From the IMG/VR virus record IMGVR_UViG_3300009497_000020, positions 1 to 32,983 of that record: a stretch of DNA of 32,983 nt; one strand, given 5' to 3'. Position numbers and translations under genes: made by a program. This DNA is from a virus. How positions within the stretch are numbered: position 1 is the stretch's first letter; each line of letters begins with the position of its first letter. The notes beneath the pieces are model-generated. The model was given only the letters and a program-made list of their open reading frames with translations, did no database searches and was not told where the DNA came from. Shown here one piece after another: positions 1 through 32,225 of this stretch.

Positions 1-735
1 CAAGGATCTCTTGTTCTTAATGAGTTAACCGACGTTAATACTGCGGGGTTAGAGCACGGAGACTCTTTAGTCTATAGTTTTATTTTAGATAAATGGATAC
101 CTCAACAGACTGGAACTTCAAATGTATTTATACTTGATGATTTAACAGATGTAGACCTGCAACTGACTGCGCCCTTAGATAATGATGTTTTAGTTTATAA
201 TCTTGCGGAGGATAAGTGGTTTCCAGGTGCGGTATCTAGGGTTGCTTCGCTAGATGATTTAACAGATGTAGATTTACAAACCCAGGCCCCAACTGAGGCC
301 GATGTAATAGCTTATAACTCTATTACAAGTAAGTGGGAACCTCAACTCATTGCGAACATTACAGTAACAAGTTTAGACGGTTTAGATGAGGTAGACATTA
401 CCAGTCTTGGCAATAATCCTTTAGAGGGTGAAACACTAGTATGGAATGCTATTGACTCCGTCTTTAGACCTGGGTCCCCCAGTCTTGATACAATTAGTTT
501 AGGCTCTTTAGGAGATGTAGATACAAGTACGGGAGGAAATGTACCAGCATCCGGAGAAAGCTTATTTTGGGATGGAATTAAATGGGTTCCTGGACCTACT
601 GGTACTGCTGTCGCAGCTTTCATTGGCGATTTAGTAGATGTCAATGTTATTTCTTACCCTCCTAAAGAGTTACAAGTACTTACCTGGGATTCCTCCATTA
701 ATAGATGGTACCCTAGAAACGGGCACTCAGGAGGC
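1..735 (+). repeat. LTDVD repeat block 1 (six units)
   Basis: Six protein-level repeats lie here, with heads LNELTDVNT, LDDLTDVDL (twice), LDGLDEVDI, LGSLGDVDT and IGDLVDVNV. Each is followed after about 25 residues by a tryptophan-containing tail such as KWIPQ or KWFPG. The DNA copies of the head (gatgatttaacagatgtaga) are nearly identical at 139 and 256, which points to recent duplication. The block continues off the left edge. Confidence 0.85.
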
Positions 736-3700
736 ATTGAAGACTTTATAGCCGAAGGAGACATTTTACAGGGAGAGGTAGTTTCTATCAATTTGAATGG
801 CTCTGTTAGTAGAACAGGCCAGTCTCCTTTTCAGCCGGCCTGGTACAAAGAAAATCCAACTCCTTTTGGTACTGCTTCAAATGACTTTTTTGCATACAGT
901 ATGGCAGCAAGTACTGATAAGCTGCTCGTATCGGCGGATAGAGAAGATGAGACAGGGGAACTGGACTCGGGTAAAGTATATGTATATAATGCGCTTGGAT
1001 TTCTAGAAGCAACTATTAATAATAATAATATAAATGCCTCCCCAGCAAATGATAGATTTGGATTTAGCCTAGCAATATATGGCAACTTATTTGCGATTAG
1101 TGCACCTTTCGAAGATTCAGGAGCAAACTATAATACTGGAGCAGTATATCTTTATAATCGTACTACTAATGCTATAACTAGCCAAGTAGTACACCCCGGC
1201 CTAGCAACATTTGGGTCCGTACAGTCTTATAGCCCCAATAACAGTCAATTTGGACACTCAATATCTCTTGGAGGTGAAAGATTAGCAGTCGGAGCTCCCT
1301 TTGATTCTGGTAACATAGCTATCAGTAGCGGAGTAGTATACATAGTTAATCCGTCTCCTGCTGTTGGCGAGGCTCAATTTCCTCATATTATAACAAATCC
1401 TAATGAGACCGGCGGCTCATATAATGACCAGTTTGGTACGAAAGTAGCTTTAAATAGTACTGGACAATACCTTGCAGTTGCGAGCAAGAACGAAGGGCCA
1501 AGTTCTACCAAAGGTGGCGTATATATATTTGATATTTCTGACGAGGAAATCGATCCTGTACAAGTAGCCTATATAGCAAATCCTGGATTAGGTGGCGGCT
1601 TTAGTTATAATTTCGCAAGTGCTTTAAAGTGGGATCAAGTTTATCCAAATCTTTTAGCTATCGGATCTTATGATTCGGATACAGATTACCCTGAGGGGTA
1701 TGACCAGGGTAGAGTATTTATATGGGATCTGAATACACTAGATTTCCGAACTGTAATTACTAATCCTAATAGTTATAATAACCCTACAAACGGAGATCGA
1801 TTTGGTTGGTCCGTAGATATGAAAGAGGGCAAGCTCTTAGCTGGAGCAACTTATGAAGAGCAGGGCTATGTTGGCGGGAAGTATACTAATGCTGGTAAAG
1901 CTTATTTACTGGATGCTACTTCAGGTCAATTAGAAGCTATCTTCTCTAATCCTAATATATATGGGGACTCTACTAATGAGCAGTTCGGTTACTCAGTAGC
2001 TATTGGAGGTCAGGGCTTTAATGACTTATACCATGTAGGTACTCCCTATGTTAGAAATACAATTAGTAGTGATTTTAATTCCGGCGCTGTTGTAACTTTT
2101 GATTCTCAAATTACCACCAATGCTGACTCATGGATAGGTATAGCGTTTGAAGATATTGATGATGGAGAGGTTGGGAACGTTACTCTATTCGGAGGAGTAG
2201 CAAAAAATTTATTTGGATTGGAAGCAGGCAGTAATTATTATTTGCAAGTAGACGGAGGATATACCCTCACACTTTCTCCTTATGGAATTATAGGAAAGGC
2301 GCTTAGTCCAAATACACTACTTATAACAGGTGACGTAGAGTCTAATACTGCTGATCAAGTAAATGTACTTAATGATTTAAACGACGTAACAAGTGTTACC
2401 CCACAAGTTGGAGATGGATTAGTTTGGAATGGTTCAGGCTGGGTAACAGGCGCAGTTTCTGGCGGGGTCTCAAATATTGGAGAGCTGGATGATGTATTTT
2501 TACCAGTACCTAATTTACTTCAGTCAGGGCAAGTTCTAACTTGGAATGGAGTAGCCCAGTCATGGGTTAATGCAGCTACGGGGTCTAGTAATGTAGCTAT
2601 AATAAATGATTTAACAGACGTAGACTTAGATACTATCCCACCTTTAGAAGATCAAGTACTACAATTCGATGGGGCAACATGGAGACCAGCAGATTTACCT
2701 GAAGGACAGAGAATTACAGGAGTAGCTTCCGAAAATATAACTGAAGGAAGCATAGTACTATATGGAAATACAGGACAATTTAAAAATGTAGAAGTATCTA
2801 TTGGCGCATTCCTTGCAAGTATACCTGCACCTGTACCAAGTAACTATGCGTTATTTGGCTCAGTTATTACACATCAGGGTGATTATTACGCAGTCTCTGC
2901 TCCAGGAGTCTCAGCACAGGGTGTTGGAAGTTACTTCGGAGTTGTAACTGTATATGATGCAGTTACTAACTCTCCTGTTAGAACTTTCTATCCCCCGCGT
3001 GAGGGCTACCAAGTTATTGCAGATGTTTCCAATCAATACTTTGGAGAGTCTATAAGTATTTACGGAGATTACCTAGCAGTAGGTGCGCCTAAGGGAACAA
3101 TAAATGGAGCCGTGCAGACAGGAATAGTATATGTTTTTAGAATATCTACGGGTAGTTTAGTATACATAATACCTAGCCCCTTTAATCAAAATGCAAATGA
3201 CAACTTCGGAGCGTCTGTATCTATAGATGACACTGCCATTTTAATCGGGTCACCCGGCTACGATAGCCCTACTAGCTTTAATACGGGAAGAGCCTATTTA
3301 TATGATTTTAATGACCTTGATGGCTACCCTTATGACATAGAGGAAGAGGAATGGCCAATTGCTCCTCCTAGTAAAATATTTGAAAATTCTAACGATGAGG
3401 GTACCCCCGCTGGAGATGCTTTCGGTTCTGTAGTTAGTATCACGCCTTCGTCCGTAATTATTTCTGCTCCCTCCGAGGACACCGGAGGTACTCTAAGTAC
3501 TGGTAGAATCTATATAAGAAATCGTGTAACTACTGCTAGTATCGCAACTTTAGTAAATCCTAATATTGATTCAGAAGGCTTCGGAACAGTACTAGCTTAC
3601 TGGCCAGAAAAAATAATAGTCGGAGCACCTGGATACAATGCAAATCAAGGCATAGTTTATATCTTTTCAGCTACTACAGGGGCCCTACTACATACTATTC

Positions 3701-6700
3701 AAAGCCCAGAAGCAATAGGTGATAGGTTTGGCGTTTCCGTAGCTATTGGGGAGTACCAGATAGTAATAGGCTCAGAAACTGGCAAAGATGGTTATCCTGA
3801 TTCCGGAAAAATTCATGTATACTCTAATGCTACTCCCCCTGTTTATTATGGAGGTTTTGATAACCCTGGATACAATGTATCTCCTTCCGGAGAAAGAATG
3901 GGAGCGGCTGTTGCTATAACCCCCGCAGGAAAAGCTATAGCAGGCGCTCCTTATAGTGATCTCAGCGCTGGTAGTCAGCAAAATCCTGCAATTGATCGTG
4001 GAGCTGTACATCTATTCGATGTAAGTGAATCTGCTATTAGTTCTGATGCAGGTGAGTGGATAGGTATCGCAGCGGGTACTATGACTCAAGGAGAGACTGG
4101 GGAAGTTGTTATTCTTGGGGGGCTTACTCCATTCGTATACTCAGGATTAGTTCCTGCTACCTATTACTACGCGAACTTTGACGGTACACTAACGACAGAT
4201 ACAACTGATTATGGCTTAGTAGGTATTGCAACAAATAGTCAACAACTATTAATATTGGGCAGTATTTCTGGCGTATCTACTATGCCAGACCTTAGCGACG
4301 TAGATTTTTCTAGTGGTCTTACCCCCTCTCATGCTTTAACCTGGAATGGTCAATTCTGGGAAGGTAAGTTCGTATCTACTGTAACTAGTATAACTGAATT
4401 AGACGATGTATCTTTGATTGATACACCTCCAGAAGATACTCAAGCTCTGGTATTTAATTCTTTTAGTGGAAAATGGGAAGCTACCGATATTGGGTACTCT
4501 AATGTTTTTGCTTTTAATGACTTAAATGATGTTAGTATTTCTAATGTAGCTGTTGGGCAAAGTCTTTCTTGGAACGGCTCACAGTGGGTGCCTGAAACTT
4601 TTTCCCAAGTATCAACTCTCGATGAATTAACTGATGTAAATACAAATGTATTTAAAACTGATAGAGATATTCTTGAATGGGACGGTGAAGCGCTTGAGTG
4701 GACAGTAGCTAGAAATGTTTTCGGAAACTTTATAAATATAGAGGCTGAAGGCTCTATTGCTGCGGGCGAGCCCGTCTATATAACTAATAACTCTAAAGTG
4801 GCTCAAATACGGGGTACGGAGGAAATAACAGGGGCTGCAGTATTCGAAAATGACTTCTTTCCCGATATATCGCTTGCTGGCTACGGTAGATCAATTGATA
4901 TATATGAAGATTTAGTAGTAGCAGGTAATCCTGAATTTGACCTACCAGGAATTACAAATACAGGAAAAGCATTTATATATAGTGCTAGTTCTGGAGAATT
5001 GTTACAGGTACTATATCCTCCTACTAGCTATATCTACCAGCAGTTTGGTAATACTGTTGCCACAAACGGTGACTTAGTAGCTATTATAGCAGCTGAGAAC
5101 CCCTATGCTAATGGAAAAGGTAAGGTACACATATATAAAGGAACTACTGGAGAGTACTTAAGATCAATTGAGCACCCCGAACCCTCTAGAACTACTTCAA
5201 ATGGCTTTGGGTATCACCAAAAATCTATAGATTTTCAAGGAAACTTCCTCTTAGTAGGGGACAAAAACTATAGAGACCCTATTACTAATGCATCTCTAGG
5301 TAGGGCGTTCTTATTTAATGCGTATACAGGAGACTTAGTACATACTTTTGAACACCCTAATTCCTCTGCCGTAAATTCTAGAAGTTTTGGTACACAAGTA
5401 GCTATGCTTGATGACGGTAGTAAAATCCTTATATATGATGTCTTACAGGACGGGTTTAATTCTGCAACTGCTTATATATATGATTATGCCTATAATTTAG
5501 TAAGTACTATAGAAGTACCTCATACGAATGCAGATACTATCGCAATAAATAGTAATTACTTAATTGTAGCTAGTACTTATTCAGGCTACCTATACATTCA
5601 TAGCCTGCTGGAGGGCACACTTTTATATACTTCTGGGTCTGCTTACTTAGACTATGGGCAGAAGTCTCTTTCTGCCAATGAAAAAACTTTAGTTGTAACA
5701 TACGGGTCTAATAAGGGCTTCAGAGTTTTTGATATCGCATCGAGAATTCTACTAGCAAGTGAGACTACTTCAAGTGTAGGCAGCTGTGCATCCCTCTTTA
5801 AAACTAGATTAGTATACTCTACAGGATATCAGGCAATAACTTATAATTTGAATGATATATCTATTTCTAGCAAGGCCGCAGATTGGGTAGGTATTTCAGA
5901 GGGTGCTTACTTAGCTGGAGATACTACTACTATTATTACAGGTTCTGGTTTTGTTTCTGCACTATCAGGGCTTATACCCGGAGCTAATTACTACGTAGCT
6001 GTAGATGGAACCTTATTCCCTGGAGCTACAGGCTTCGGAAAGATAGGACGAGCTATATCTGAAACCGAGTTTTTAGTAAGTTCTAATACTAGTAATATTG
6101 ACCTTGACTCTGATAGCACTGCGTCACTTATTGCAGGTATCGGAGATTTAACAGATGTAGACACTTTTACATTATTTCCTACAGATGGACAATACCTACA
6201 GTATAATAGTGTTACTAGTACTTGGTCTCCTGGAGATGTGTCTCTTCCCAGCCTAACAGATATTAGTTTAGCTGACATTGAAAACAACGATCTTTTATTA
6301 TACTCTGAAGGAATATGGTCAAATGGGACTTTAGCAACTACTAATCTATCAGATATAGATACTACTGTAGCTCCTACAGCATCTCAAACTTTAATTTGGA
6401 ATGAGAGTACCTCTAAGTGGGAGGCGGGCATACCTGAACGAGCTCTTGATTCTTTAAGTAATATGGGTAGCAGTGTATCTACTCCAACTACAGGTCAGAT
6501 ACTAGTATACAATACTATTGGGGATCAATGGAGCGCAGTAGATAATGAGTTTAGTTTAGATGGCTTAACCGATGTAAATCTAGAGGGAGTTACTGATAAT
6601 CAATTCCTGCAGTATAATTCCACAAGTAGTGAGTGGGAGCCCGGAACCGTAGCAACAGCCGTATCAGAATTAACAGACGTAGATTTGACTGGAGTTACAG

Positions 6701-7428
6701 AAGGGCAGTACTTAGTATACAATGATCAAGATAAGTGGGTTCCTACAACTATAGAGTTCGCGGCTGCACTAACAGACTTAACAGATGTGAATGCTGTAGG
6801 AGCTACTCAAGGTCAAGGATTAATATACGATACTGGAACAAATAAATTTGAATTAGCAATAGTAGGTACATCTAATGTGGATACATTAGAAGACCTATCT
6901 AATGTTTCAATACCAACAACCCCCAATAATGGGGATGTATTAAAATATAACGGGAACACAGATACTTGGGAAGCTACGCCTACTCCTAGTCCTGCCGTTG
7001 TATATGCAACTAGAAACTCTTTTCCTGCAATAGGGAACTTAGGGGATTTATCTTTTGCACAAGACACAGGCGTTTTATATGTGTGGGAAGGAACTATATG
7101 GTATAACTTAAAGAGAACCAATGCGTTCTACTTGGTTAGAGCCGGACAGTTTACAGGACCACTAACTGGAACACAGTTATTTCAACCTCAACAAACGATA
7201 ACATTACATGAGATACGAGCACAAGTTGATCAACCTTCTGGTGCCTCTCTAATATTTTCTGTGGTGCGAAGTGGTGCTGAGGTTCAGCAATTTGTTATAC
7301 CCCCCGCGGCTCCCTTCATTGAAGCTGCTTTTACTGCGGGAGTTGTAGTGGGGCCTGCGGATGAAATAACTGTTGACATAATATCTGGGCCAGGTACTAA
7401 CCTGTCCATTAAGTTCATTTACTCATAA
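1..7428 (+). CDS. Giant modular tail fibre / adhesin (5' end missing)
   Basis: The frame is open from base 1 to TAA at 7426-7428, giving 2475 visible residues. The true start lies left of the window; the ATG at 793 is internal, because the repeats continue upstream of it without a break. The protein alternates two kinds of module. The first is a repeat of about 40 residues beginning LxDLTDVD and ending WN...WxP, seen about 21 times. The second is a block that opens with an AEGxIxxGxxV strand, runs through FG-GAP-like propeller blades, and closes with a W(I/V)GIx...GLxPGxxYY domain; there are three of these blocks. The C-terminus (about residues 2335-2475) has a GDLxFxQDTGxLYVWEGxxWY segment followed by a beta-rich domain. 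Such repeats are known from phage fibres, and FG-GAP propellers from integrins and bacterial adhesins. Receptor binding on the virion surface is inferred. No signal peptide or membrane segment is visible in the part seen. Structural class is fairly sure, the exact role is not. Confidence 0.85.
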   Translation, partial: QGSLVLNELTDVNTAGLEHGDSLVYSFILDKWIPQQTGTSNVFILDDLTDVDLQLTAPLDNDVLVYNLAEDKWFPGAVSRVASLDDLTDVDLQTQAPTEADVIAYNSITSKWEPQLIANITVTSLDGLDEVDITSLGNNPLEGETLVWNAIDSVFRPGSPSLDTISLGSLGDVDTSTGGNVPASGESLFWDGIKWVPGPTGTAVAAFIGDLVDVNVISYPPKELQVLTWDSSINRWYPRNGHSGGIEDFIAEGDILQGEVVSINLNGSVSRTGQSPFQPAWYKENPTPFGTASNDFFAYSMAASTDKLLVSADREDETGELDSGKVYVYNALGFLEATINNNNINASPANDRFGFSLAIYGNLFAISAPFEDSGANYNTGAVYLYNRTTNAITSQVVHPGLATFGSVQSYSPNNSQFGHSISLGGERLAVGAPFDSGNIAISSGVVYIVNPSPAVGEAQFPHIITNPNETGGSYNDQFGTKVALNSTGQYLAVASKNEGPSSTKGGVYIFDISDEEIDPVQVAYIANPGLGGGFSYNFASALKWDQVYPNLLAIGSYDSDTDYPEGYDQGRVFIWDLNTLDFRTVITNPNSYNNPTNGDRFGWSVDMKEGKLLAGATYEEQGYVGGKYTNAGKAYLLDATSGQLEAIFSNPNIYGDSTNEQFGYSVAIGGQGFNDLYHVGTPYVRNTISSDFNSGAVVTFDSQITTNADSWIGIAFEDIDDGEVGNVTLFGGVAKNLFGLEAGSNYYLQVDGGYTLTLSPYGIIGKALSPNTLLITGDVESNTADQVNVLNDLNDVTSVTPQVGDGLVWNGSGWVTGAVSGGVSNIGELDDVFLPVPNLLQSGQVLTWNGVAQSWVNAATGSSNVAIINDLTDVDLDTIPPLEDQVLQFDGATWRPADLPEGQRITGVASENITEGSIVLYGNTGQFKNVEVSIGAFLASIPAPVPSNYALFGSVITHQGDYYAVSAPGVSAQGVGSYFGVVTVYDAVTNSPVRTFYPPREGYQVIADVSNQYFGESISIYGDYLAVGAPKGTINGAVQTGIVYVFRISTGSLVYIIPSPFNQNANDNFGASVSIDDTAILIGSPGYDSPTSFNTGRAYLYDFNDLDGYPYDIEEEEWPIAPPSKIFENSNDEGTPAGDAFGSVVSITPSSVIISAPSEDTGGTLSTGRIYIRNRVTTASIATLVNPNIDSEGFGTVLAYWPEKIIVGAPGYNANQGIVYIFSATTGALLHTIQSPEAIGDRFGVSVAIGEYQIVIGSETGKDGYPDSGKIHVYSNATPPVYYGGFDNPGYNVSPSGERMGAAVAITPAGKAIAGAPYSDLSAGSQQNPAIDRGAVHLFDVSESAISSDAGEWIGIAAGTMTQGETGEVVILGGLTPFVYSGLVPATYYYANFDGTLTTDTTDYGLVGIATNSQQLLILGSISGVSTMPDLSDVDFSSGLTPSHALTWNGQFWEGKFVSTVTSITELDDVSLIDTPPEDTQALVFNSFSGKWEATDIGYSNVFAFNDLNDVSISNVAVGQSLSWNGSQWVPETFSQVSTLDELTDVNTNVFKTDRDILEWDGEALEWTVARNVFGNFINIEAEGSIAAGEPVYITNNSKVAQIRGTEEITGAAVFENDFFPDISLAGYGRSIDIYEDLVVAGNPEFDLPGITNTGKAFIYSASSGELLQVLYPPTSYIYQQFGNTVATNGDLVAIIAAENPYANGKGKVHIYKGTTGEYLRSIEHPEPSRTTSNGFGYHQKSIDFQGNFLLVGDKNYRDPITNASLGRAFLFNAYTGDLVHTFEHPNSSAVNSRSFGTQVAMLDDGSKILIYDVLQDGFNSATAYIYDYAYNLVSTIEVPHTNADTIAINSNYLIVASTYSGYLYIHSLLEGTLLYTSGSAYLDYGQKSLSANEKTLVVTYGSNKGFRVFDIASRILLASETTSSVGSCASLFKTRLVYSTGYQAITYNLNDISISSKAADWVGISEGAYLAGDTTTIITGSGFVSALSGLIPGANYYVAVDGTLFPGATGFGKIGRAISETEFLVSSNTSNIDLDSDSTASLIAGIGDLTDVDTFTLFPTDGQYLQYNSVTSTWSPGDVSLPSLTDISLADIENNDLLLYSEGIWSNGTLATTNLSDIDTTVAPTASQTLIWNESTSKWEAGIPERALDSLSNMGSSVSTPTTGQILVYNTIGDQWSAVDNEFSLDGLTDVNLEGVTDNQFLQYNSTSSEWEPGTVATAVSELTDVDLTGVTEGQYLVYNDQDKWVPTTIEFAAALTDLTDVNAVGATQGQGLIYDTGTNKFELAIVGTSNVDTLEDLSNVSIPTTPNNGDVLKYNGNTDTWEATPTPSPAVVYATRNSFPAIGNLGDLSFAQDTGVLYVWEGTIWYNLKRTNAFYLVRAGQFTGPLTGTQLFQPQQTITLHEIRAQVDQPSGASLIFSVVRSGAEVQQFVIPPAAPFIEAAFTAGVVVGPADEITVDIISGPGTNLSIKFIYS
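840..2330 (+). repeat. FG-GAP propeller 1 plus WIGIA closing domain
   Basis: About seven blade signatures can be read in order: FFAYSMAAS, FGFSLAIYG, FGHSISLGG, FGTKVALNS, FNFASALKW, FGWSVDMKE and FGYSVAIGG. Most are followed by a (V/I)(G/S)AP-like turn and a G-x-V-Y-(V/I/L)-Y/F-(N/D) strand. This matches the FG-GAP beta-propeller layout. No clear DxDxDG calcium loop is present. The closing domain starts at SWIGIAFED, near 2128. Seven blades are counted by eye; a fold prediction would settle the number. Confidence 0.75.
2359..2700 (+). repeat. LTDVD repeat block 2 (three units)
   Basis: Three units with heads LNDLNDVTS, IGELDDVFL and INDLTDVDL. Each ends with a tryptophan strand (SGWVTG, QSWVNA, ATWRPA). 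The block links the first and second propeller modules and probably forms a rod or trimeric stalk; that role is inferred. Confidence 0.8.
2715..4260 (+). repeat. FG-GAP propeller 2 plus WIGIA closing domain
   Basis: An opening strand (VASENITEGSIVLYG) is followed by about seven blades: FGSVITHQG, FGESISIYG, FGASVSIDD, FGSVVSITP, FGTVLAYWP, FGVSVAIGE and MGAAVAITP. Several carry the AVGAP or IVGAP turn. The closing domain starts at EWIGIAAGT near 4054 and includes GLVPATYYY. Blade number is counted by eye. Confidence 0.75.
4276..4716 (+). repeat. LTDVD repeat block 3 (four units)
   Basis: Four units with heads MPDLSDVDF, ITELDDVSL, FNDLNDVSI and LDELTDVNT. Their tryptophan-containing tails include QFWEGK, GKWEAT, SQWVPE and LEWTVA. 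The block sits between the second and third propeller modules. Confidence 0.8.
4730..6090 (+). repeat. FG-GAP propeller 3 (diverged) plus WVGIS closing domain
   Basis: The opening strand is INIEAEGSIAAGEPVYI. Blade signatures are YGRSIDIYE, FGNTVATNG, HQKSIDFQG, FGTQVAMLD, an IAINSNYLIVAST strand, YGQKSLSAN and a final LFKTRLVYS strand. The later blades have lost the FG-GAP consensus, so this copy is the most diverged. The closing domain starts at DWVGISEGA near 5881 and contains GLIPGANYYV. Confidence 0.65.
6133..6981 (+). repeat. LTDVD repeat block 4 (eight units)
   Basis: Eight shorter units have heads IGDLTDVDT, LPSLTDISL, TTNLSDIDT, LDSLSNMGS, LDGLTDVNL, VSELTDVDL, LTDLTDVNA and LEDLSNVSI. 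It is the longest block and leads into the C-terminal domain. Unit spacing is tighter than in block 1, near 35 residues. Confidence 0.8.
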
Positions 7429-12687: not shown

Positions 12688-12849
12688 ATGGCTTCTCGGG
12701 GGTTGTACGCAAATATAAATCGTAGAAAAAAGAAAGGAATAAGTAGGTCTAAAAAGAAATCTACTATATCTGCTAAAGCCTACTCTTTTATGAAGGCGGG
12801 GTTTAAAAAAAGGAAAAAGAAAAATGGCAAGAAAAAAAAGAAGCGTTAA
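12688..12849 (+). CDS. Small basic phage protein (RGLYANINRRKK type, 53 aa)
   Basis: The ATG at 12688 follows AGGAG (12676-12680) at a spacing of seven bases. The protein begins MASRGLYANINRRKKKG and continues SRSKKKSTISAKAYSFMKAGF before a poly-lysine tail; 24 of 53 residues are Lys or Arg. From memory, short proteins with this RGLYANIN...KAY..MKAGF pattern recur in marine phage genomes with no known function. The last 26 bases overlap the next gene in a different frame and include an eight-A run (12832-12839). DNA binding or head-interior packing would fit the charge but is not shown. Confidence 0.75.
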   Translation: MASRGLYANINRRKKKGISRSKKKSTISAKAYSFMKAGFKKRKKKNGKKKKKR

Positions 12850-13129
12850 AAAGAAACACCCAGCATTAAAAAGAGCCGGAGTAAGTAAATTTAATAAAGC
12901 AAAAAGAACTCCAAAACACCCTAAAAAGTCTCATGTAGTTGTTGCTAAAGTAGGTACCAAAGTTAAAACAATACGCTTTGGTCAGCAAGGAGTTAGTGGT
13001 TCCCCTAAAAAGAAAGGGGAAAGTGCTTCTTACGCGGCTAGGCGAAGATCTTTTAAGGCTCGTCATGCTCGTAATATAGCAAAGGGTAAACTCTCCGCAG
13101 CTTACTGGGCTAATAAGGTCAAATGGTAA
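12824..13129 (+). CDS. Small basic conserved phage protein (101 aa)
   Basis: 101 very basic residues from the ATG at 12824, with AAGGA about nine bases upstream (12810-12814). The pattern is ALKRAGVSKFNKAKRTPKHPKK, then HVVVAKVGTKVKTIRFGQQGVSGS, then a Lys/Arg/Ala helix ending SAAYWANKVKW. I recognise the KxIRFGxxG...KARHAKNI.KGK.SAAYWANKVKW layout as a recurring phage hypothetical family. The charge suggests nucleic-acid contact. It precedes the terminase gene, separated by 104 bases, and is the last gene before a hairpin. It is also a candidate packaging accessory, but no helix-turn-helix is evident. Confidence 0.8.
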   Translation: MARKKRSVKKKHPALKRAGVSKFNKAKRTPKHPKKSHVVVAKVGTKVKTIRFGQQGVSGSPKKKGESASYAARRRSFKARHARNIAKGKLSAAYWANKVKW

Positions 13130-22208: not shown

Positions 22209-22258
22209 ATGTGATAAGAAAAATCAATTTACTTTCTACTTATACAAGGAACTATTTA

Positions 22259-22690
22259 ATGACAGATAATGTTAAAGCGCCAATTTCTCTTGCTAGTTTA
22301 ATGACCCCTAGTAAGACCGTATCTATTGAATTTCCTGGGTGTCCAGGAATGACAGTAGACTTATGCTACTTAGCCCGAGAAGAGCTATTAAAGCTTAGGA
22401 AAAAATGTCTAACTACAAAATTTGATAAAAGAACCCGGCAACCAGAAGAAATCCTAGATGATGATAGGTTTCTACATGAGTATGTTAAAGCTGTAATTAA
22501 AAACTGGAAAGGATTTAAGTACTCATATTTAGAAGAATTACTACTAGTAGATATCAGTCAGCAAGATCCTAACGCGGACTTAGACTTTACTCAAGAAAAC
22601 GCAGAATTATTAATGAAGAATTCCGGAACATTTGATACTTGGGTTACTGAAACAGTGGGTGATTTGGAAAATTTTACTCAGAACAAGTAA
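22259..22690 (+). CDS. Tail assembly chaperone, short form (gpG-like)
   Basis: 143 residues from the ATG at 22259, behind AAGGA (22246-22250). A GTG at 22211 is in frame but lies at or before the predicted transcription start. The sequence has a strand (KTVSIEFPGCPGMTVDLCYL), then helices (REELLKLRKKCL, FLHEYVKAVIKNWKGF, YLEELLLV). Context identifies it: between tail tube and tape measure, with a second frame reached by frameshift. Such chaperones bind the tape measure and recruit tube protein, and are not part of the finished virion. The last codons carry the slippery site, and its stop lies in the downstream hairpin. Confidence 0.88.
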   Translation: MTDNVKAPISLASLMTPSKTVSIEFPGCPGMTVDLCYLAREELLKLRKKCLTTKFDKRTRQPEEILDDDRFLHEYVKAVIKNWKGFKYSYLEELLLVDISQQDPNADLDFTQENAELLMKNSGTFDTWVTETVGDLENFTQNK

Positions 22691-23115
22691 CAAGAATAGT
22701 CTCGTTACTTGAAAGATATACGAGAGAAGCAGACAGTGTAATAGATATAGATAAATATTATGCTGTTTGTGAACAGCTAGGACAAGAACCCGATCCAGAT
22801 AAGTTACCTATAGAGATAAGTGCATTTCCTGTAGAGGTACAATCGGCTCTATATATTTATAATCTATTATCTGATAGGTGGGATGGAATGTCAGGATCTT
22901 ATTTAGGTAAAGAATGGTCCTCGGTTAATTTCTTGCTTGACACTTACGATGTAGTAGACGAGCGTAAAGAGATAGTATACTTTTGTAAGGTATATGAAAA
23001 TATAAAAGTACGGTATACAGCTGAAAAAGCTGAAAGAAGACGAAAAGCCGAAGAACGAAAAAGTCAAGCGGCAGGAGGCGGAGGTAAGAATTTCGCCCAT
23101 AATGTAACCGGATAA
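22663..23115 (+). CDS. Tail assembly chaperone C-terminal frame (gpT-like, via -1 frameshift)
   Basis: This frame is open from 22663 to TAA at 23113-23115 and has no good start of its own; the first ATG is at 22888. After a -1 slip on AAATTTT at 22669-22675, translation continues from 22675 and adds 146 residues to the first 139 of the upstream protein, for 285 in total. The added part is helical (RIVSLLERYTREADSVIDIDKYY, EVQSALYIYNLL) with an Arg/Lys/Glu tail (AEKAERRRKAEERKSQ) and GGGG. This is the gpG-GT arrangement of lambda and most long-tailed phages. The stop overlaps the tape measure ATG (TAATG). Confidence 0.88.
   Translation, partial: FGKFYSEQVTRIVSLLERYTREADSVIDIDKYYAVCEQLGQEPDPDKLPIEISAFPVEVQSALYIYNLLSDRWDGMSGSYLGKEWSSVNFLLDTYDVVDERKEIVYFCKVYENIKVRYTAEKAERRRKAEERKSQAAGGGGKNFAHNVTG
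22669..22711 (+). promoter_or_regulatory. Programmed -1 frameshift signal (slippery heptamer and hairpin)
   Basis: The heptamer A-AAT-TTT (22669-22675), read in the chaperone frame, fits X-XXY-YYZ exactly. After eight bases comes a perfect 8-bp stem, CAAGTAAC (22684-22691) with GTTACTTG (22704-22711), with a 12-base loop. The zero-frame stop TAA (22688-22690) lies inside the stem. All three elements needed for -1 frameshifting are present. Confidence 0.9.
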
Positions 23116-26100: not shown

Positions 26101-27551
26101 CTATATTAATAAGGAATAATAACTTACAAAAGATATCTCATAGGCAAGCTGTTGAAGAGATACTTCTTTCTACTCGAAGCAAAAAAATTCAGGCAGGGCT
26201 TACTGACGGACAGCAACGAAGAGTCGGTATACTACTTCAACAAGAAAAGCTTCAGATGTCTATACGTAATTACGAGTTAGAGATTCGAGAACTTAGTACA
26301 GCCATAGATGCTAACAACACAAATAGTTTGACTACTGATCTCCAGGCTCTTGAAATTGCTAGACTTAAAAGACAGGAAGCAGAAGCAGAACTAGGAATTA
26401 TATTACGAACGCAGGAGGCCTTTGAGCAGTATAGGCAGGCTATTGCTCAAGGTTTTGAATCAGGACTTCAAGAAGCAATAAATAATCTAATAATCGGAGC
26501 TGAGTCTAGTTTTAAAGACTCTTTATTAGGGCTAATAGACGGCATACTTAAAAGTCTTGCTAGGAAAGTATCAGAAACAATTGCAGACAATATCATTGAT
26601 GCAATAGCAAGAACTACAATTGGCTCTAAAATTTTCAAGGGAATGACCCTTACAGATGATATTGCCAAAGGACATAAGAAAGGGGCAGAGGTAGCAAAGA
26701 AAAAAATAGAGGATGCTGGAGTTTCTGTAGCAGATAGGTTAGATAATTCATTTCGAAACGGTGCAATAACTCTTGCAGAGGCTATATCAGCCGCATGCCA
26801 AGCTTGTAAGAAAGATGAAGTCCCCGGAGGCGGCGAGGGCAGCCCAGAAGAGAAGCTTATTAGGTCTTTATTTGAAAAAGGTAATGGAGGTAATGCAGGT
26901 AATGGAGCTCCATTACCGGAGGATCAGGGGTCGATTGTCATTCCAACCAAGGGTTACACCAAACAGGAAAAACAAATGCATAGGGCCTCTGATGCGATGA
27001 ATGATTTTGCAACAACTGTTTCAAATATGATAAACAAACTTGTGGGGGCGGTTAAGAGTTTTGGTTCCATGTTATTTAAATTTGTTTCATCAATTGGTAG
27101 TATTTTTCAAAAGTTCATAACTATTTTAGTCAGCGCAGTCTCAACGATTGGCTCTGCTGGAGGTAGTGCGCTTAGTTCAGTTATAAGTGCAGGGATGAGT
27201 CTCTTTACTGGAGGAGGTCCAGTACCAATGGCAAATGGAGGAATAGTAAGTAAACCTACGTATGCTTTAATAGGGGAGGGAAGATATAGTGAAGCTGTTA
27301 TTCCAATGCCAAACGGTAAAAGTGTCCCAGTTGACCTAGGGAATTCAAGAGTAGGATCTAATCAAAATAATAATGTTACTGTTAATGTAAGTATGGGAGA
27401 CGGAGACTCAAGAGGACAATCTTCCTCTAGTAGTACTGCTAGTGGCCAGGATAGTGCAACTCTTGGTAATGCTATAGCGAAGGCAGTACAAGAAGAGCTA
27501 CAAAATCAGAAGCGCTCTGGAGGGATACTTAATCCTTATGGAGTAGCCTAA
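23115..27551 (+). CDS. Tail tape measure protein
   Basis: 1478 residues from the ATG at 23115 (overlapping the chaperone stop). It sets tail length and crosses the host envelope at DNA entry. The N-terminus (KIYIDVVIDDKGTTKKVALS) is the usual start of the family. Hydrophobic segments lie at about residues 69-95, 468-500 (VAASVTAIFVSKAFSVLGW...IIYTLYEVAKSFF) and 1305-1360. A long coiled coil spans about 800-1150. The C-terminus has the typical GGPVPMANGGIVSKPTYALIGE motif with EAVIPM. A Gly/Pro linker near 1240-1280 contains a perfect palindrome in the DNA, and a CQACK pair is present near residue 1230. No peptidase motif was seen. A tail of very roughly 220 nm is predicted. Confidence 0.96.
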   Translation: MAKRNKIYIDVVIDDKGTTKKVALSQKQLADAAQAAGVQVGTVDRRLKGAAQASSNSTKNFSKMAQGISGGLVPAYATLAAQLFAISAAFQFLKDAGNLQTLQAGQIAYAGSTGIAMRTLTNDIIAATDAQISFQDASSASAIGVAAGLSADQLTRLGAAAKSTSIILGRDVTDSFNRLVRGVTKAEPELLDELGIILRLETAFDNYKKQMNITSGELNSFQRSQAVTNEVLTQAEDKFGRILEITQVAPNNFNKLGKAFDDILITVKGFAAAVAGPFANVLIESPKLAGAALALLVSGPLKAAIPGLQNLTEKTKDLATASKESFRSAKMELEQYSKAAKTAKLLSRDEAGEYKNLAAGDARGALASKNISMRGKNNPFKALSKDSKDITNQMVDDMQIAATKHKQIMKRMTQEERMAFRMMLDDIKIANNVATGQVSARWVQTGKTMSLTFKYIEVQWKAAMSTIRVAASVTAIFVSKAFSVLGWVGIIYTLYEVAKSFFTVEEEVKKVSGELQLQEKRLASLVEDYKDFAAVQKILSEEGGSLLSTYQNFGQFIGSTGKKELETYGAAVTSSVAKFAEELPKAKKELEDIKATIDQGVGFKDFALILVPGVLGVSNLSRKLVKLSMAYYNQKEATKKAGESLADYVERTGDKGLSDYIKLLRMQKAAWEGQTDSIITASDAGKTYMGFVNQLLDGKFDPANKEAMETARKSFVEVGQAAAQARKLIDDSNDKFTGLKNKLAPTTEADAFLATIEETQAALEVIKNDNAAGYEKLTAQTAELTRQKDIVEKIITRESAAAVVAATRQTTYTQNLVNASAFEKSILDINLKKANIQDKISEKLAENNDLIALTGEKAEDLKGSQRESYLIRVSETEELKAQLALEDIKEKKIRQQNRLRLLGVDYNLQQLIAQEEFLTLTKDMDQSQRSIANIEEQRRKNIDEILNKSATLNKILEDDNGELRQLTQLEQDRVNELRAEIAIIRAKNIQLENTEAILIRNNNLQKISHRQAVEEILLSTRSKKIQAGLTDGQQRRVGILLQQEKLQMSIRNYELEIRELSTAIDANNTNSLTTDLQALEIARLKRQEAEAELGIILRTQEAFEQYRQAIAQGFESGLQEAINNLIIGAESSFKDSLLGLIDGILKSLARKVSETIADNIIDAIARTTIGSKIFKGMTLTDDIAKGHKKGAEVAKKKIEDAGVSVADRLDNSFRNGAITLAEAISAACQACKKDEVPGGGEGSPEEKLIRSLFEKGNGGNAGNGAPLPEDQGSIVIPTKGYTKQEKQMHRASDAMNDFATTVSNMINKLVGAVKSFGSMLFKFVSSIGSIFQKFITILVSAVSTIGSAGGSALSSVISAGMSLFTGGGPVPMANGGIVSKPTYALIGEGRYSEAVIPMPNGKSVPVDLGNSRVGSNQNNNVTVNVSMGDGDSRGQSSSSSTASGQDSATLGNAIAKAVQEELQNQKRSGGILNPYGVA
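24674..24689 (+). repeat. Perfect 16-bp palindrome in the tape measure gene
   Basis: AAGACTAG followed directly by its complement CTAGTCTT. It is preceded at 24655-24666 by a shorter dyad, GAGCT-AC-AGCTC. Random sequence of this size would hold about half of one such site, so it may be chance. Confidence 0.6.
26898..26917 (+). repeat. Perfect 20-bp palindrome in the tape measure linker
   Basis: GGTAATGGAG followed directly by CTCCATTACC. Two further GGTAATG copies precede it (near 26880 and 26889) in the Gly/Asn-rich linker coding stretch. About 0.03 such sites are expected by chance in a window of this size. Confidence 0.8.
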
Positions 27552-28198
27552 TGGCTGTAGGATTTGATATTGGGTTTCTAAAAGTTGTCAGTGATATATC
27601 TTTTACTAGAATATCAAACACACTAAATGGGACTATAGATGCAGAAACAACGGATTTAAGTGTTTTTAAAATTGGAAATGTGGTAACTATTCTTAATAGT
27701 GATTCTTTAGAGGAAGGCTATACTAATGATGGCACGTTTTTAGTTACGAGTTCGCAGAGTAATAGTTTATCTGTTACTAGATTGACGCCTGCTGATAACG
27801 AAGGTGTTTCAGTGCCTGTTGTTCCGATGACAAAAGAAGCCAGTCCTAATATTAATATAAGCTTTGAGGATATAGTATGTCCTGATAGAAACGTTAGAAA
27901 GATAATAACCCCACAAGTTCTGACAGCAGAGTTTGGAGATGGATATGAGGGCAGAATTAAACAAGGAGCCTTTACTAGGCAAGAGGAATATTCGGTAAAA
28001 TTTATTAATAGACCCCCCGAAATTATAGAAAGTATAATAGAATTTTTTGAAAGAACTGAAGGAGTTAAATCATTTACGTTTGTAGTTAGAGAAGACCCTT
28101 ATTATGCAGTACCCGTAATATGTCAACAGTACTCAATATCGTACGACAGTGATTTTCATGCAGGCTGCGAAGCTAAATTTAAAAGAGTAAAACAATAA
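27551..28198 (+). CDS. Minor tail protein, gpM-like, with extra N-terminal domain (copy 1)
   Basis: 215 residues from the ATG at 27551 behind GGAG (27540-27543), overlapping the tape measure stop. Residues about 105-213 fit the lambda gpM-like tail-tip domain (DIVCPDRNVRK, LTAEFGDGYEGRIKQG, VKFINRPPEIIESIIEFFER, VKSFTFVV, PVICQQYSISYDS). Residues 1-95 are a separate beta-rich piece (FKIGNVVTILNSD, DGTFLVTSSQSNSLSVTRL), perhaps a small barrel. The gpM domain joins tape measure and tail tube to the tip. It is the first of three such domains in this stretch. Confidence 0.85.
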   Translation: MAVGFDIGFLKVVSDISFTRISNTLNGTIDAETTDLSVFKIGNVVTILNSDSLEEGYTNDGTFLVTSSQSNSLSVTRLTPADNEGVSVPVVPMTKEASPNINISFEDIVCPDRNVRKIITPQVLTAEFGDGYEGRIKQGAFTRQEEYSVKFINRPPEIIESIIEFFERTEGVKSFTFVVREDPYYAVPVICQQYSISYDSDFHAGCEAKFKRVKQ

Positions 28199-28225
28199 TC
28201 CTTATAGGATAAGCACACGACGTGC

Positions 28226-28393
28226 ATGGAGAACCTTGTGACAGCTTTAGAAGTAGTAAATACGGGATGGCCCATAGCCGTAGGGTTTATAACCTTAGTT
28301 ATTGTGCTAGCAAAAATGCATGCTGATATTGAGCAAATTAAGGAAAAAGTTAAAGTACTTTTTGAACTTTGGAATAAAAGAAGCAATGACTGA
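28226..28393 (+). CDS. Small one-pass membrane protein (holin-like), copy A
   Basis: 55 residues from the ATG at 28226, or 51 from the GTG at 28238, which has the better ribosome site (GGAG 28228-28231, six-base spacing). One membrane segment (WPIAVGFITLVIVLA, residues 15-29) is followed by a charged helix ending LFELWNKRSND. Size and layout suit a small holin or a membrane anchor. Two nearby starts recall the dual-start holin/antiholin design, although the added MENL is acidic rather than basic. The gene is inserted between two tail-tip genes, and its stop overlaps the next start by eight bases. Confidence 0.65.
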   Translation: MENLVTALEVVNTGWPIAVGFITLVIVLAKMHADIEQIKEKVKVLFELWNKRSND

Positions 28394-28787
28394 GATAAAT
28401 GAAAATACTACTCTAGAGATACCTGTACGAAATCTTATCGGGTTAGGTGTAAGTTTAGTTATGGTTACTGCCGCCTATCTTACCTTAGAGACTAGAATTA
28501 CTACTATTGAGCATGATATTAAAATGCAAATGAAAACTATAGAAGCAAATGAAAGTTTTGTAAGAGAGTGGCCCTTAGGGCTTCGAGGCGCTCTACCCGA
28601 CGATTTAATGCAAAATGCACAAATTAAAATGCAATCAGAAGAACTGGAAAAAGTTACTGATATTGCCAGGCAAATCAATAACTTAGAAATAAAATTAGGT
28701 AAGTTAGAGGGTCAGGTATCTGAACAAGATAAGAAGCTAGAAACTCTTTTTCAATTATGGAATACTGCCCAGAAGAGAGATAACTAA
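28386..28787 (+). CDS. One-pass membrane protein with coiled coil, copy B
   Basis: 133 residues from the ATG at 28386. An upstream in-frame ATG at 28320 would overlap the previous gene by 74 bases and is less likely. A membrane segment (NLIGLGVSLVMVTAAYLTL, residues 16-34) is followed by coiled coil (TRITTIEHDIKMQMKTIE), a WPLGLRGALPDD hinge, and a second coiled coil (INNLEIKLGKLEGQVSEQDKKLE) ending LFQLWNTAQKRDN. The C-terminal LFxLWN motif is shared with the small protein just upstream. Similar membrane-anchored coiled coils occur in marine phage structural regions, from memory. The job could be lysis, spanin-like bridging or virion assembly. The stop overlaps the next ATG (TAATG). Confidence 0.75.
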   Translation: MTEINENTTLEIPVRNLIGLGVSLVMVTAAYLTLETRITTIEHDIKMQMKTIEANESFVREWPLGLRGALPDDLMQNAQIKMQSEELEKVTDIARQINNLEIKLGKLEGQVSEQDKKLETLFQLWNTAQKRDN

Positions 28788-29233
28788 TGCCTATAGGTAT
28801 TAATGTTCAAACTGTTACTAGCCCTAAATATATTTGCCCAGATCGAGGGTACACTAGAGCTGCTGGATTTAGTGTGTTTAATGCTGATTTTGGGGACGGC
28901 TATACACAAAAGTTTAAGCAAGGTATAAATAATAGATCTGAAATACTCAATTTAAAGTTTGAAAATAGACCTGCTACAGAGATTAATACTCTTTTTAGAT
29001 TTTTTAGGAGATATAAAGGGATTGATCCTTTTCCTTATAGGGTTCCAATCTCTGAAACAAGTGAAAAAGTCATATCATGTATATGTAAGGACTATTCAAT
29101 AGAGTGGACTACGAATACAATAGGGACTTTAACTGCACAATTAATACAAGTAGATGAATTACCATTATTTATAGATATACAACCTTACGTAGCCGAAACG
29201 TATATCACAGACTCATATGTAGGACTAGGATAA
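28787..29233 (+). CDS. Minor tail protein, gpM-like (copy 2)
   Basis: 148 residues from the ATG at 28787. The gpM-like domain fills nearly the whole protein: PKYICPDRGYTRAAGF, FNADFGDGYTQKFKQGINNRSE, LKFENRPATEINTLFRFFRR, GIDPFPYRV, then ISCICKDYSIEW. It is clearly related to the domain at the end of the 215-residue protein upstream, with the same CPDR and DFGDGY landmarks. The last 25 residues (PLFIDIQPYVAETYITDSYVG) are a short extension. The following gene begins two bases after the stop. Confidence 0.88.
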   Translation: MPIGINVQTVTSPKYICPDRGYTRAAGFSVFNADFGDGYTQKFKQGINNRSEILNLKFENRPATEINTLFRFFRRYKGIDPFPYRVPISETSEKVISCICKDYSIEWTTNTIGTLTAQLIQVDELPLFIDIQPYVAETYITDSYVGLG

Positions 29234-29234
29234 G

Positions 29235-32225
29235 ATGGCCCAAGAACTTGGTATAAATATAGGAGAAGCACAGGGTACTACCAGATATGTGCGATATGAC
29301 AGAGGCATTAGAGCTGCTGTCAAGCAGCGCGTACGTAGTGTTAGCTATGGAGGCACATATGAAGAACGAGTTCCTGATGGTATAAATATTATAGAAGAGA
29401 TCTATACTGCTACTTTTTCAAATAGAAGCTACGCCGAAATTTCAGATTTAATAGACTTTTTTGACTCTAAAAATGGGGTGGAATCTTTTCTTCTTTATGT
29501 AAAAGATACTAGTAATACTGAAGGAGCTAGAGGTGTTCCTGTAGTATGCGAAAAGTATAATGTTACCTATGTAAATAAAAAGGTTGCAAGTTTGGCATGT
29601 ACATTTCAAAAAATAGTAACTACACAATTTAATGATGACGAAATATATCAAGACCTCACAGAATTTTCTCAAGGACAGTATACTCTATTATCCAATAAAG
29701 CTGAGGCTGTGGCGGGAGAAGCTATTACTTTTACATTACTATCCTTGAATGTTCCTGATGGGTCTTATGTAGCATTTGATATTTCAGGAGTTACTGAATA
29801 CACGGTAGAAGGAGATTACACAGATTTTGTAATAGTAGGCAACCAAGGCTCTATTACTATAACTATTGATGATCCCTTGATTGTAGCACTTCCAGCAGTA
29901 TTAACTTTTACACTTACAGATTTTCCGAGTGCAAGTATTGATATTGATATATTTGCTCTTGAGCTTACCGCGCCTACATTAACTTTTTCAACGCAATCTC
30001 CAACCAATCAATCTGTAGTATTTCACTTAAAATCTGATGGAACTTATGGGCTTAGTGATAGTTTAGTAGGTGACTTCATCTATAATCAGGAAGGAACTTG
30101 GATTAATAATAATTTGGGGCTAAACAGTAGTGAATTTGAGGTTTATTTTGAGTCGACTATTGATGATCCTTCTATAACTGTAGTTTCTGATCCTGTAACA
30201 GCTATTAGCCAATATGTTGACTTTAATCAAGATATTACTGTTACGTTTACATCAAGCTTAGCGGATAATGTTGGACCAAATTCCGAAGCCTTTAATTTAA
30301 ATATCAGAGAAAAGGCAGATGTTTTGAATATTGATACGGGAGTAATAACAGCACAGTTAGAAGGAGCCTCAGTTCCTGCCCCTACTTACGCTCTTTCACT
30401 TAGAAATATAATAGAAGGTACTTCAAACAGCTTATATGAAGGCGAAACGGCAGTATTAGATTTTATTTCTAATCAAGCTGATACTAGTTTCGCCTGGTCT
30501 CTTGTCCAGGGAACTGCTACCACTAATGACTATAATATTGCTGCTACAGAAGGAACTTTTACAACTAATGAGAGCGGGGATGCAGTAATTACAGGACCAA
30601 CTCTTCGTGACGATGTGGATTCGACGGACCAGACCTTTACTTTAAATGTTACTCTATCTGGCAGTATTGTTGCTTCTCAAGTTATAACAATTACACCTCT
30701 ACCTGAAGTAAATCTACCTACCCCTGCTCCCGAAAAGCTTTACTATGTTGATTTCGTATTTACTAATTACAACCCTATTACTACAATTCCGGGTACCTCT
30801 ACTAATGGATATGTTTCTAGCTTTAAGGACGGAGAAGTAGTCTACCCTTTCAGACAGGCGCTTCCGATTAATGCAGCTTTAGATCTGAAGTACAAAGATA
30901 TACCTGCAGGCACTTCATTAAGACTAGGTCTAAAGGCTGTCGGGGATGACTCTATACTTACTACTATATTTGGAGGGGGGTGTCCTACTTACGACTCACC
31001 CGCTACCATAGTAGTAGGAACTGAAAGAAACGAGCAAGTTTTTTATTTTAATAACAGTACAAATCCATATAATTTAAGTATTTTAAATGCCCCTAGTGAA
31101 GATCAATCTATATCCGTAAAAATATGGGATCCGCTGAATCCAGCAGCTGCTTATATGGTTAAGTCATTTATTATTACTAAAACTCCTGCAGTGCCCTCTG
31201 TTATTGGTACTTTTTTACCTGTTAGTGAAGTGAACTCTTTTGGAACCACTATTCTAAATGAAGAAATCAATTTAGGGTTTCAAGTGTTCATTAGAAATCC
31301 TCCGAATGAAGTAGGAAAAACTGTGGATGTACACCGGTATGAGAATGGTAAAATGGTAGGAAGTACTGCCATTGCACGAACTCTTGGCGGTGCTGATAAA
31401 GATTGGTTAATAGAATTTAATAATACTACTAATGTACCTACTACTTACAATCAATCCCCCAATAGTGTAGCAGAGGGTACTCAGTATCCTTTAAATTTTA
31501 ACAGAAAATTTGTATATAGTTTTAGCGCACCCGGCCTTGCCATAGACAATTTAGGTGGTACTATTAAATTATATCATACGTCCGATTTAATAACTCCTCA
31601 AAAATCTATAACTACCTTAATGTCGGGAACTTCAGCCCCTAGTGCTAGAAAATTAGTAAATTTAAATTTATCGTATAATTTGCCAGCGGACTCTAATTAT
31701 GGAAATTTATTTTTAAAAATTTGGTTTTTGACAAATGGATATGCTGTATGTAGTCTAATGCAGCAGACTGGCACTGCTGGAGGTTTTCCAATATATGAAA
31801 CACTCGGCGGTAAGAATGTTAGATGGGACTCAGAGGGAGCTAGTTCTTTAGACCTTACTAGCTTAATATCTAGTGGCGGCAATGCATTTAGGCAAATAAG
31901 TAAAAGCCCCGAAGTAATTACGGATATATCTAGGTCTAAATCTGCTGCTTCCGCTTCTTTAATAACTAAATCAACTGGCTATACAGTCAATATAACTAAT
32001 ACAAATAATCAGGTAGAGTACACATGGCCCTTAGAACCCTATGCAGGGACTGCAAGTCGTAGTATAAAATTTAGTGATAGTGTAGTGTTTGATTCTGCAA
32101 TATGGGTTGAAAATATACTAAGTATTATTGGAACAATTAGTATTGCCCCACCTAAAGTTACAACTACAAGTTCCGGAGGTGGTGGTACGTTTGATAACGT
32201 CCCCGGTTCTACTGATTTAAAATAA
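29235..32225 (+). CDS. Tail-tip protein: gpM-like domain (copy 3) fused to long beta-rich extension
   Basis: 996 residues from the ATG at 29235, behind AGGA (29227-29230). Residues 1-135 are a third gpM-like domain (VRYDRGIRAA, VSYGGTYEERVPDGIN, ATFSNRSYAEISDLIDFFDS, GVESFLLYV, GVPVVCEKYNVTY). It has lost the CPDR cysteine and has SYGGTY in place of DFGDGY. Residues about 140-500 hold Ig-like or Calx-beta-like strands (EAVAGEAITFTLLS, IIEGTSNSLYEGETAVLDF, DYTDFVI and NDYNIAATEGTF type loops). Residues 500-980 are unrecognised, with Tyr/Asn-rich strands. The end is Gly-rich (TTSSGGGGTFDNVPGS). The extension probably projects from the tip and may touch the host surface. Fusion of gpM to a domain set this long is unusual as far as I know. 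Confidence 0.8.
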   Translation: MAQELGINIGEAQGTTRYVRYDRGIRAAVKQRVRSVSYGGTYEERVPDGINIIEEIYTATFSNRSYAEISDLIDFFDSKNGVESFLLYVKDTSNTEGARGVPVVCEKYNVTYVNKKVASLACTFQKIVTTQFNDDEIYQDLTEFSQGQYTLLSNKAEAVAGEAITFTLLSLNVPDGSYVAFDISGVTEYTVEGDYTDFVIVGNQGSITITIDDPLIVALPAVLTFTLTDFPSASIDIDIFALELTAPTLTFSTQSPTNQSVVFHLKSDGTYGLSDSLVGDFIYNQEGTWINNNLGLNSSEFEVYFESTIDDPSITVVSDPVTAISQYVDFNQDITVTFTSSLADNVGPNSEAFNLNIREKADVLNIDTGVITAQLEGASVPAPTYALSLRNIIEGTSNSLYEGETAVLDFISNQADTSFAWSLVQGTATTNDYNIAATEGTFTTNESGDAVITGPTLRDDVDSTDQTFTLNVTLSGSIVASQVITITPLPEVNLPTPAPEKLYYVDFVFTNYNPITTIPGTSTNGYVSSFKDGEVVYPFRQALPINAALDLKYKDIPAGTSLRLGLKAVGDDSILTTIFGGGCPTYDSPATIVVGTERNEQVFYFNNSTNPYNLSILNAPSEDQSISVKIWDPLNPAAAYMVKSFIITKTPAVPSVIGTFLPVSEVNSFGTTILNEEINLGFQVFIRNPPNEVGKTVDVHRYENGKMVGSTAIARTLGGADKDWLIEFNNTTNVPTTYNQSPNSVAEGTQYPLNFNRKFVYSFSAPGLAIDNLGGTIKLYHTSDLITPQKSITTLMSGTSAPSARKLVNLNLSYNLPADSNYGNLFLKIWFLTNGYAVCSLMQQTGTAGGFPIYETLGGKNVRWDSEGASSLDLTSLISSGGNAFRQISKSPEVITDISRSKSAASASLITKSTGYTVNITNTNNQVEYTWPLEPYAGTASRSIKFSDSVVFDSAIWVENILSIIGTISIAPPKVTTTSSGGGGTFDNVPGSTDLK

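Follow-up and report, generated by a model that had tools for sequence, protein, structure and literature searches.

What is a pair of small membrane-protein genes doing inside the tail-gene operon of a marine phage? The window analysed here, a virus record of 32,983 bases taken at its full length, carries such a pair, G1 and G2, on the + strand. A sequence-only reading had described them as overlapping genes that interrupt a run of gpM-like genes, each encoding a single membrane segment, a charged coil and an LFxLWN motif at the C-terminus. It suggested that they descend from one duplicated gene or bind the same partner, and it remarked that a lysis function would be unusual in a tail-tip module. 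We examined the two genes, their relatives and their neighbours.

The gene pair and its reading frames

The overlapping pair and its architecture of membrane segment, helical coil and LFxLWN end were confirmed. The genes on both sides match the gpM family (PF05939) in Pfam whereas G1 and G2 do not, so that the pair does interrupt a gpM run. The features are as follows.

27551..28198, + strand: gpM-like minor tail protein (PF05939, Pfam match), before the pair
28226..28228, + strand: disfavoured upstream ATG, which would add four residues to G1; lost in loci L003 and L006
28228..28231, + strand: GGAG ribosome-binding-like site, with a 6-base spacer to the GTG at 28238; present in the six relatives shown
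28238..28393, + strand: G1, a 51-aa single-membrane-segment protein with C-terminal LFELWN; GTG start, stop at 28393
28253..28309, + strand: G1 membrane segment (residues 6-24), with a K/R excess on its C-side
28301..28375, + strand: G1 C-terminal coil ending LFELWN (residues 22-46), the part common to G2
28386..28787, + strand: G2, a 133-aa single-membrane-segment protein; ATG start, 8-base overlap with G1
28431..28487, + strand: G2 membrane segment (residues 16-34); charge does not decide its orientation
28569..28595, + strand: G2 linker WPLGLRGAL (residues 62-70) between two predicted long helices (AlphaFold2 model)
28689..28763, + strand: G2 C-terminal coil ending LFQLWN (residues 102-126), matching the G1 tail
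28787..29233, + strand: second gpM-like protein (PF05939, Pfam match), directly after the pair
29235..32225, + strand: third gpM-like domain (PF05939 at the gene start, Pfam match) with a long C-terminal extension

Two starts had been proposed for G1. The GTG at 28238, with its GGAG, is favoured over the ATG at 28226 because the ATG reads AGG in L003 and GCG in L006, the GTG is present in 6/6 relatives shown, and distant homologues start at the equivalent point (M-D/T-A-L). A longer mechanical reading frame for G2, from 28320 (155 aa), was rejected as unsupported, homologues starting at 28386. Compared with its relative in L015, G1 has a dN/dS of about 0.04 (30 of 153 bases differ, changing only 6 residues), and G2 has one of about 0.22 compared with L006. 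These low values show that G1 and G2 are both real genes under purifying selection.

The window's terminase shares ~50% identity, and part of its tape-measure protein ~40% identity, with the counterparts in Vibrio phages such as vB_VpS_PG07, which we take to be T5-like. Three further features of the window were noted. The gpM-like genes at 27551-32225 are three in tandem, the third being fused to ~850 extra residues, and a 95.8-kb relative (genome G001) keeps this tandem arrangement by order and similarity. An open-ended frame of at least 2475 aa at 1-7428 carries many 'LxDLxDVD' repeats and has a counterpart of 4647 aa in G001. Two small ORFs at 22211-22690 and 22888-23115, a possible frameshift pair, precede the tape measure; tail-assembly chaperones are expected in the slot just before that gene.

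Conservation and database matches of G1

Our scan of viral contigs found 116 relatives of G1, the best 80 of which were taken as loci. Seventeen distinct forms align with no internal gaps, and 20 of the 51 positions never vary, among them WP, LAKMH, F and LWN. Judged by these sequences, G1 is an unnamed, strongly conserved and widespread family of marine phages. The window protein matched no Pfam family at E up to 10; Pfam and NCBIfam gave no above-threshold match, and 17 family members together gave only DUF948 (E 0.032). The best PHROGs match was phrog_4955, of unknown function (E 0.0015). Neither G1 nor G2 matched a named holin family significantly (PF11351 or other), the best holin-labelled PHROGs matches being at E 0.017 for G2 and E 0.15 for one G1 member.

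Among 50,697 phage records we found one weak, plausible distant relative, an 82-aa protein of Roseobacter phage CRP-811; two other G1 forms used as queries in these records found none. Profile comparison of the CRP-811 protein with G1 gave 95.1%, as against 1.2% and 0.2% for two other membrane-coil proteins. Matches in Acinetobacter phages (E 0.4-2) were judged to be chance, the context in phage TaPaz consisting of nucleotide-metabolism genes. A literature search by title or abstract start found no description of the G1/G2 family; words rarely retrieve sequence families. In locus L105, a divergent 51-aa membrane protein without LFELWN (3846-4001) occupies the G1 slot before a tail-less G2.

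Predicted topology and structure

The positive-inside rule predicts that G1 crosses the membrane once, N-out/C-in: K/R residues on the C-side outnumber those on the N-side in 42/42 distinct proteins (means 3.95 vs 0.02). For G2, the flanking K/R tie in 60/85. An AlphaFold2 model of G2 consists of two long helices (14-61 and 71-132) joined by a short linker (mean pLDDT 79.2, pTM 0.34). A fold search with this model gave no PDB match at E up to 10 and five BFVD matches, all at E 3.8 or worse, which is uninformative for a two-helix protein. If G2 were N-in/C-out, its tail and that of G1 would lie on opposite sides of the membrane and could not meet.

A C-terminal tail shared by G1 and G2

The last 25-29 residues of G1 match the C-terminal end of G2, with a best blastp E of 3e-8. 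An hhalign comparison gave 95.1% for homology of the two tails, while two membrane-coil controls gave 1.2% and 0.2%, and for the window pair only 2 of 20,000 shuffles of the post-membrane part of G2 matched the G1 tail as well. In 170 loci with 8008 distinct ORFs (30 aa or longer), LF[DEQ]LWN occurs within the last 32 residues of 40 G1 and 15 G2 ORFs and of no others; since these loci were gathered by G1 and G2 searches, the survey speaks for the specificity of the motif and not for its frequency.

Descent from one duplicated gene does not fit these data. The match is confined to the C-terminal 25-29 residues and the tail is absent from most G2 relatives, which argues against duplication of the whole of G1 into G2. 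The sequence-only reading had listed lack of conservation of the motif among homologues as part of what would count against its proposal. Such a lack is what we found in the wider G2 family, where only 16 of the 80 G2 rows carry the tail (among the matches listed); the G1 family, however, keeps [LIM]F[DE]LWN in 42/48 distinct ORFs (among the matches listed), where three of the six exceptions have LFELFN, two are divergent forms of the L105 type and one is the relative in CRP-811.

In a tree of the N-terminal part of G2 (80 rows), the 16 tail-bearing rows form one clade with 100/100 support, in a midpoint-rooted tree of few columns whose bootstrap had not settled and which does not formally exclude tail losses. 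The clade lies in a group of 27 rows, 24 of which have G1 adjacent, and the 11 tail-less rows beside the clade have a G1-family gene upstream in 11/11 cases. Over the whole sample G1 adjoins 13 of the 16 distinct tail-bearing G2 forms and 14 of the 65 tail-less ones (incomplete rows included). Because the tail-bearing G2s are one clade and their nearest relatives already adjoin G1, we consider it most likely that G2 captured the G1 coil once, when it was already the neighbour of G1. The rarity of the tail makes a gain simpler than losses.

The other suggestion, that G1 and G2 bind the same partner through the shared tail, is compatible with these results, and we favour it as a putative interaction. 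Strict co-variation of the two tails within a genome was rejected, L027 having LFELWN in G1 and IFEIYN in G2 (read by eye).

G1 is found near lysis genes in many phages

We took a census of the genes around G1. Of 83 loci, the window itself (L001) and L011 and L012, which are second cuts of the contigs behind L002 and L004, were left out, giving 80 distinct contigs. Many of these are near-copies (the 80 contigs amount to 61 distinct 2.5-kb gene strings), so the counts are not independent, and because only the best 80 of 116 G1 relatives and the best 80 of 204 G2 relatives were kept, both samples are weighted towards close relatives.

On the strand of G1 and no more than 4 kb away from it, 50/80 distinct contigs carry an endolysin gene, and an endolysin or holin-like gene is near G1 in 53/80 (both among the matches listed), where the cluster 4 and 'SWKDEW' proteins are holin-like by layout and position only and have no Pfam holin match. 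Representatives confirmed by Pfam near G1 are Phage_lysozyme, Peptidase_M15_3, GTA_holin_3TM and Glyco_hydro_19. The tail-tip position of the window is found in only 9/80 contigs (among the matches listed), all of the window's own lineage. Gene context across many phages thus favours the predicted lysis-type function, and bears out the remark that such a function would be unusual in the tip module. G2 was not found in 40/80 of the G1 contigs (among the matches listed).

The clearest cassette, in L089, opens with a holin-like gene of 160 aa, followed by G1, by a GH19-domain lysin gene (PF00182) that overlaps the G1 stop by 4 bases, and by a likely Rz with an embedded Rz1, the Rz/Rz1 call resting on layout and a sub-threshold LysC match; here G1 is neither spanin nor lysin. 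In L017 and L018 the order is M15 endopeptidase, PF11351-type holin, then G1, the PF08291 and PF11351 matches coming from further proteins of the clusters to which these two genes belong. In L027 a PF11351-type holin and an M15 gene lie downstream of G1-G2. In L091 an M15 endopeptidase gene (PF08291) directly precedes G1. The G1 relative of CRP-811 is placed between a gene annotated as muramidase and an amidase gene (PF01510).

These neighbours bear on whether G1 could be a releasin that frees a SAR endolysin, as Mu gp25 does. Its place near endolysins is similar, as is its predicted N-out/C-in, single-segment layout (in the part of PMC9239132 available). However, the endolysins adjoining G1 in L017, L018, L023, L027 and L091 start without a hydrophobic segment (translations read by eye; the endolysin of the window phage itself lies outside the window), no DUF2730 match was obtained for G1 even at E 10, and there are also holin-like genes. 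We therefore find a releasin hardly credible; endolysins without an N-terminal membrane segment, together with holin-like genes, favour a lysis-timing partner instead.

Other proteins, too, occur around G1. A 31-aa ORF, apparently a lone membrane peptide, lies between the first gpM gene and G1 in L013-L016, all four of which lack G2. A basic 101-aa protein of the window (12824-13129, KRAGVSKFNKAKRTPKHPKKSH...) has relatives that adjoin G1 in L017 and lie near it in L031, L043 and L055. Proteins of ~150 aa with a C-terminal membrane segment (clusters 12 and 27; L041:2936-3376 and L079:5530-5985) repeatedly neighbour G1 and have no Pfam match.

G1 can stand apart from the core lysis cassette

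In a further 9/80 contigs (among the matches listed) G1 lies among head genes, between portal/scaffold-like and capsid-like genes, names that were read from the sequences by eye. The remaining 9/80 have G1 elsewhere; L049, L053, L062 and L077 end less than 1 kb past G1 and L050 ends 1.1 kb past it, and L044, L079, L080 and L081 have no lysis gene in the 4-6 kb downstream of G1.

Genome G001 has the same gpM/G1/gpM order as the window, without G2, and its lysozyme gene (77,980-78,372) lies next to a holin-like gene on the opposite strand, some 37 kb away from G1. In G004 and G005, which represent the head-gene lineages, an M15 lysin gene is about 27 kb from G1, and in one of the two lineages it adjoins its own holin-like gene, with G1 not there. 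These separations suggest that G1 is an accessory element able to exist away from the core lysis cassette. A search for PF11351 in G000-G003 gave no match and its control was silent as well, so that this result does not show absence.

Positions between gpM-like genes and between head genes could also mean that the pair are membrane-anchored helpers of the virion or its assembly (tail or head assembly, or genome entry), and hence belong in late operons. We regard this as quite unlikely: lysis genes are nearby in far more of the contigs, G1 and G2 have no similarity to tail families in Pfam or PHROGs, and the module position varies while the protein stays nearly unchanged. Small, membrane-anchored proteins that are mobile between module positions might otherwise form a moron for superinfection exclusion or host-membrane modulation, moving between late operons and blocking later phages. 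The recurrent neighbours, however, are endolysin and holin-like genes, and we consider a moron very improbable.

Relatives and neighbours of G2

The G2 sample holds the best 80 of 204 relatives from a scan of viral contigs. Among the PHROGs matches of G2, that to phrog_20984, of unknown function, is by far the strongest (E 5.9e-9, residues 3-113), and the matched stretch ends before the LFQLWN tail. The match to XhlA-type PF10779 (E 0.044, 14.4 bits) is below the curated cut-off of 34.7. Weak relatives of G2 occur in Pelagibacter phages, including HTVC019P, where the gene lies between a holin-like gene and maturase/lysozyme genes, and HTVC027P, where it lies two genes before a peptidase M15.

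A holin-like or endolysin relative lies within 4 kb of G2 on the same strand for 64/80 distinct proteins, with labels assigned by blastp at E up to 1e-3 against 12 chosen proteins and not by Pfam for each match; an endolysin lies within 4 kb for 43/80 (both counts among the matches listed). Of the 16 without a lysis neighbour, 11 are in incomplete loci and the other five are flanked on each side by 3.5 kb or more of available sequence. Where both genes occur, G2 starts on the last base of the G1 stop in 33/60 loci, and the overlap seen in the window occurs in 11/60 (near-copies included in both counts); most remaining loci have the G2 start within a few bases of the G1 stop.

Its lysis-cassette position raises the question of whether G2 is an i-spanin of the Rz type, N-in/C-out, with two periplasmic coils and a linker bridging to an outer-membrane lipoprotein, G1 being a separate small holin-like protein. 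Several features would agree: the two long helices and short linker of the AlphaFold2 model, as described for lambda Rz in the available part of PMC6139136; a weak PHROGs match to the 'Rz-like spanin' phrog_739 (E 0.005); and a conserved R/K just before the membrane segment. On the other hand, a lipobox ORF was near G2 in 8/80 loci, compared with 23/432 random stretches, and none was found in the window at 27400-29800; both the first and a looser version of the scan missed the Rz1-like gene of L089, their positive control, and so do not show absence of an o-spanin. A tail shared with N-out/C-in G1 would, moreover, have no common compartment. We judge an i-spanin unlikely.

A possible role in lysis timing

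A conserved, unusually placed gene pair and a single transfer of the tail are well supported by the sequence comparisons. The function of the pair is probably in lysis, as inferred from gene context. On balance we lean to the view that G1 and G2 form a pair of membrane proteins from lysis cassettes that act in lysis timing; in this lineage the pair sits inside the tail-tip operon. G1, inserted N-out/C-in, would oligomerise through its coil on the inner side of the host membrane. G2, with its copied coil, would join the G1 assembly or dock on the same partner and act as a regulatory or co-holin subunit, and the pair would help to set when a separate holin and endolysin act. Placed in the tail operon, the pair would be expressed along with the tail proteins, and readiness for lysis would then follow tail synthesis.

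Several observations stand against this picture. The window and head-gene lineages have the pair far from the endolysin, and holin-like and lysin genes occur together there with no G1 or G2 beside them; G1 often occurs without G2 and G2 without G1; and 3 of the 16 tail-bearing G2 forms have no adjacent G1.

The full form of the proposal, a lysis timer of two single-segment subunits in which the regulator, G2, originated when the oligomerisation tail of G1 was copied, and whose place in the tail operon of one phage lineage ties readiness for lysis to tail synthesis, is conceivable but doubtful. Were it true, an antiholin or co-holin would have been born by tail capture and not by a dual start or duplication. 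A single capture would directly predict which two proteins touch, and G1, if a lysis timer, would provide a handle on burst timing in marine phages without cultured relatives.

Comparison with known systems

Three described systems come closest; what follows reflects the available parts of their papers. Lambda Rz (PMC6139136) has the layout predicted for G2: a single membrane segment at the N-terminal end, then a pair of long helices connected by a linker. G2 differs in that no lipoprotein partner was found, by a scan that missed its control, and in that its C-terminus is shared with G1.

The Mu releasin gp25 (PMC9239132) is like G1 in having one membrane segment, an N-out/C-in orientation, few outside residues and a gene near that of the endolysin. 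It is longer (99 aa), belongs to DUF2730, which G1 does not match, and is tied to SAR endolysins, which the G1-neighbour endolysins that were read do not resemble.

LysF1b is needed for efficient lysis by two mycobacteriophages, Girr and NormanBulbieJr (PMC13056207). Unlike G1 it has 124 aa (vs 51), a Gram-positive host and a place in PF10874 (DUF2746), a Pfam model that window G1 did not match at E up to 10; its partner, unlike G2, is a two-segment protein, for which the available part of PMC13056207 does not mention a shared tail. Like G1, LysF1b has one N-terminal membrane segment, a predicted N-out/C-in orientation and a charged helical C-terminus, and its gene overlaps a second membrane-protein gene in the lysis cassette. 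By analogy of layout, G1 would resemble a very short protein of the LysF1b/releasin type.
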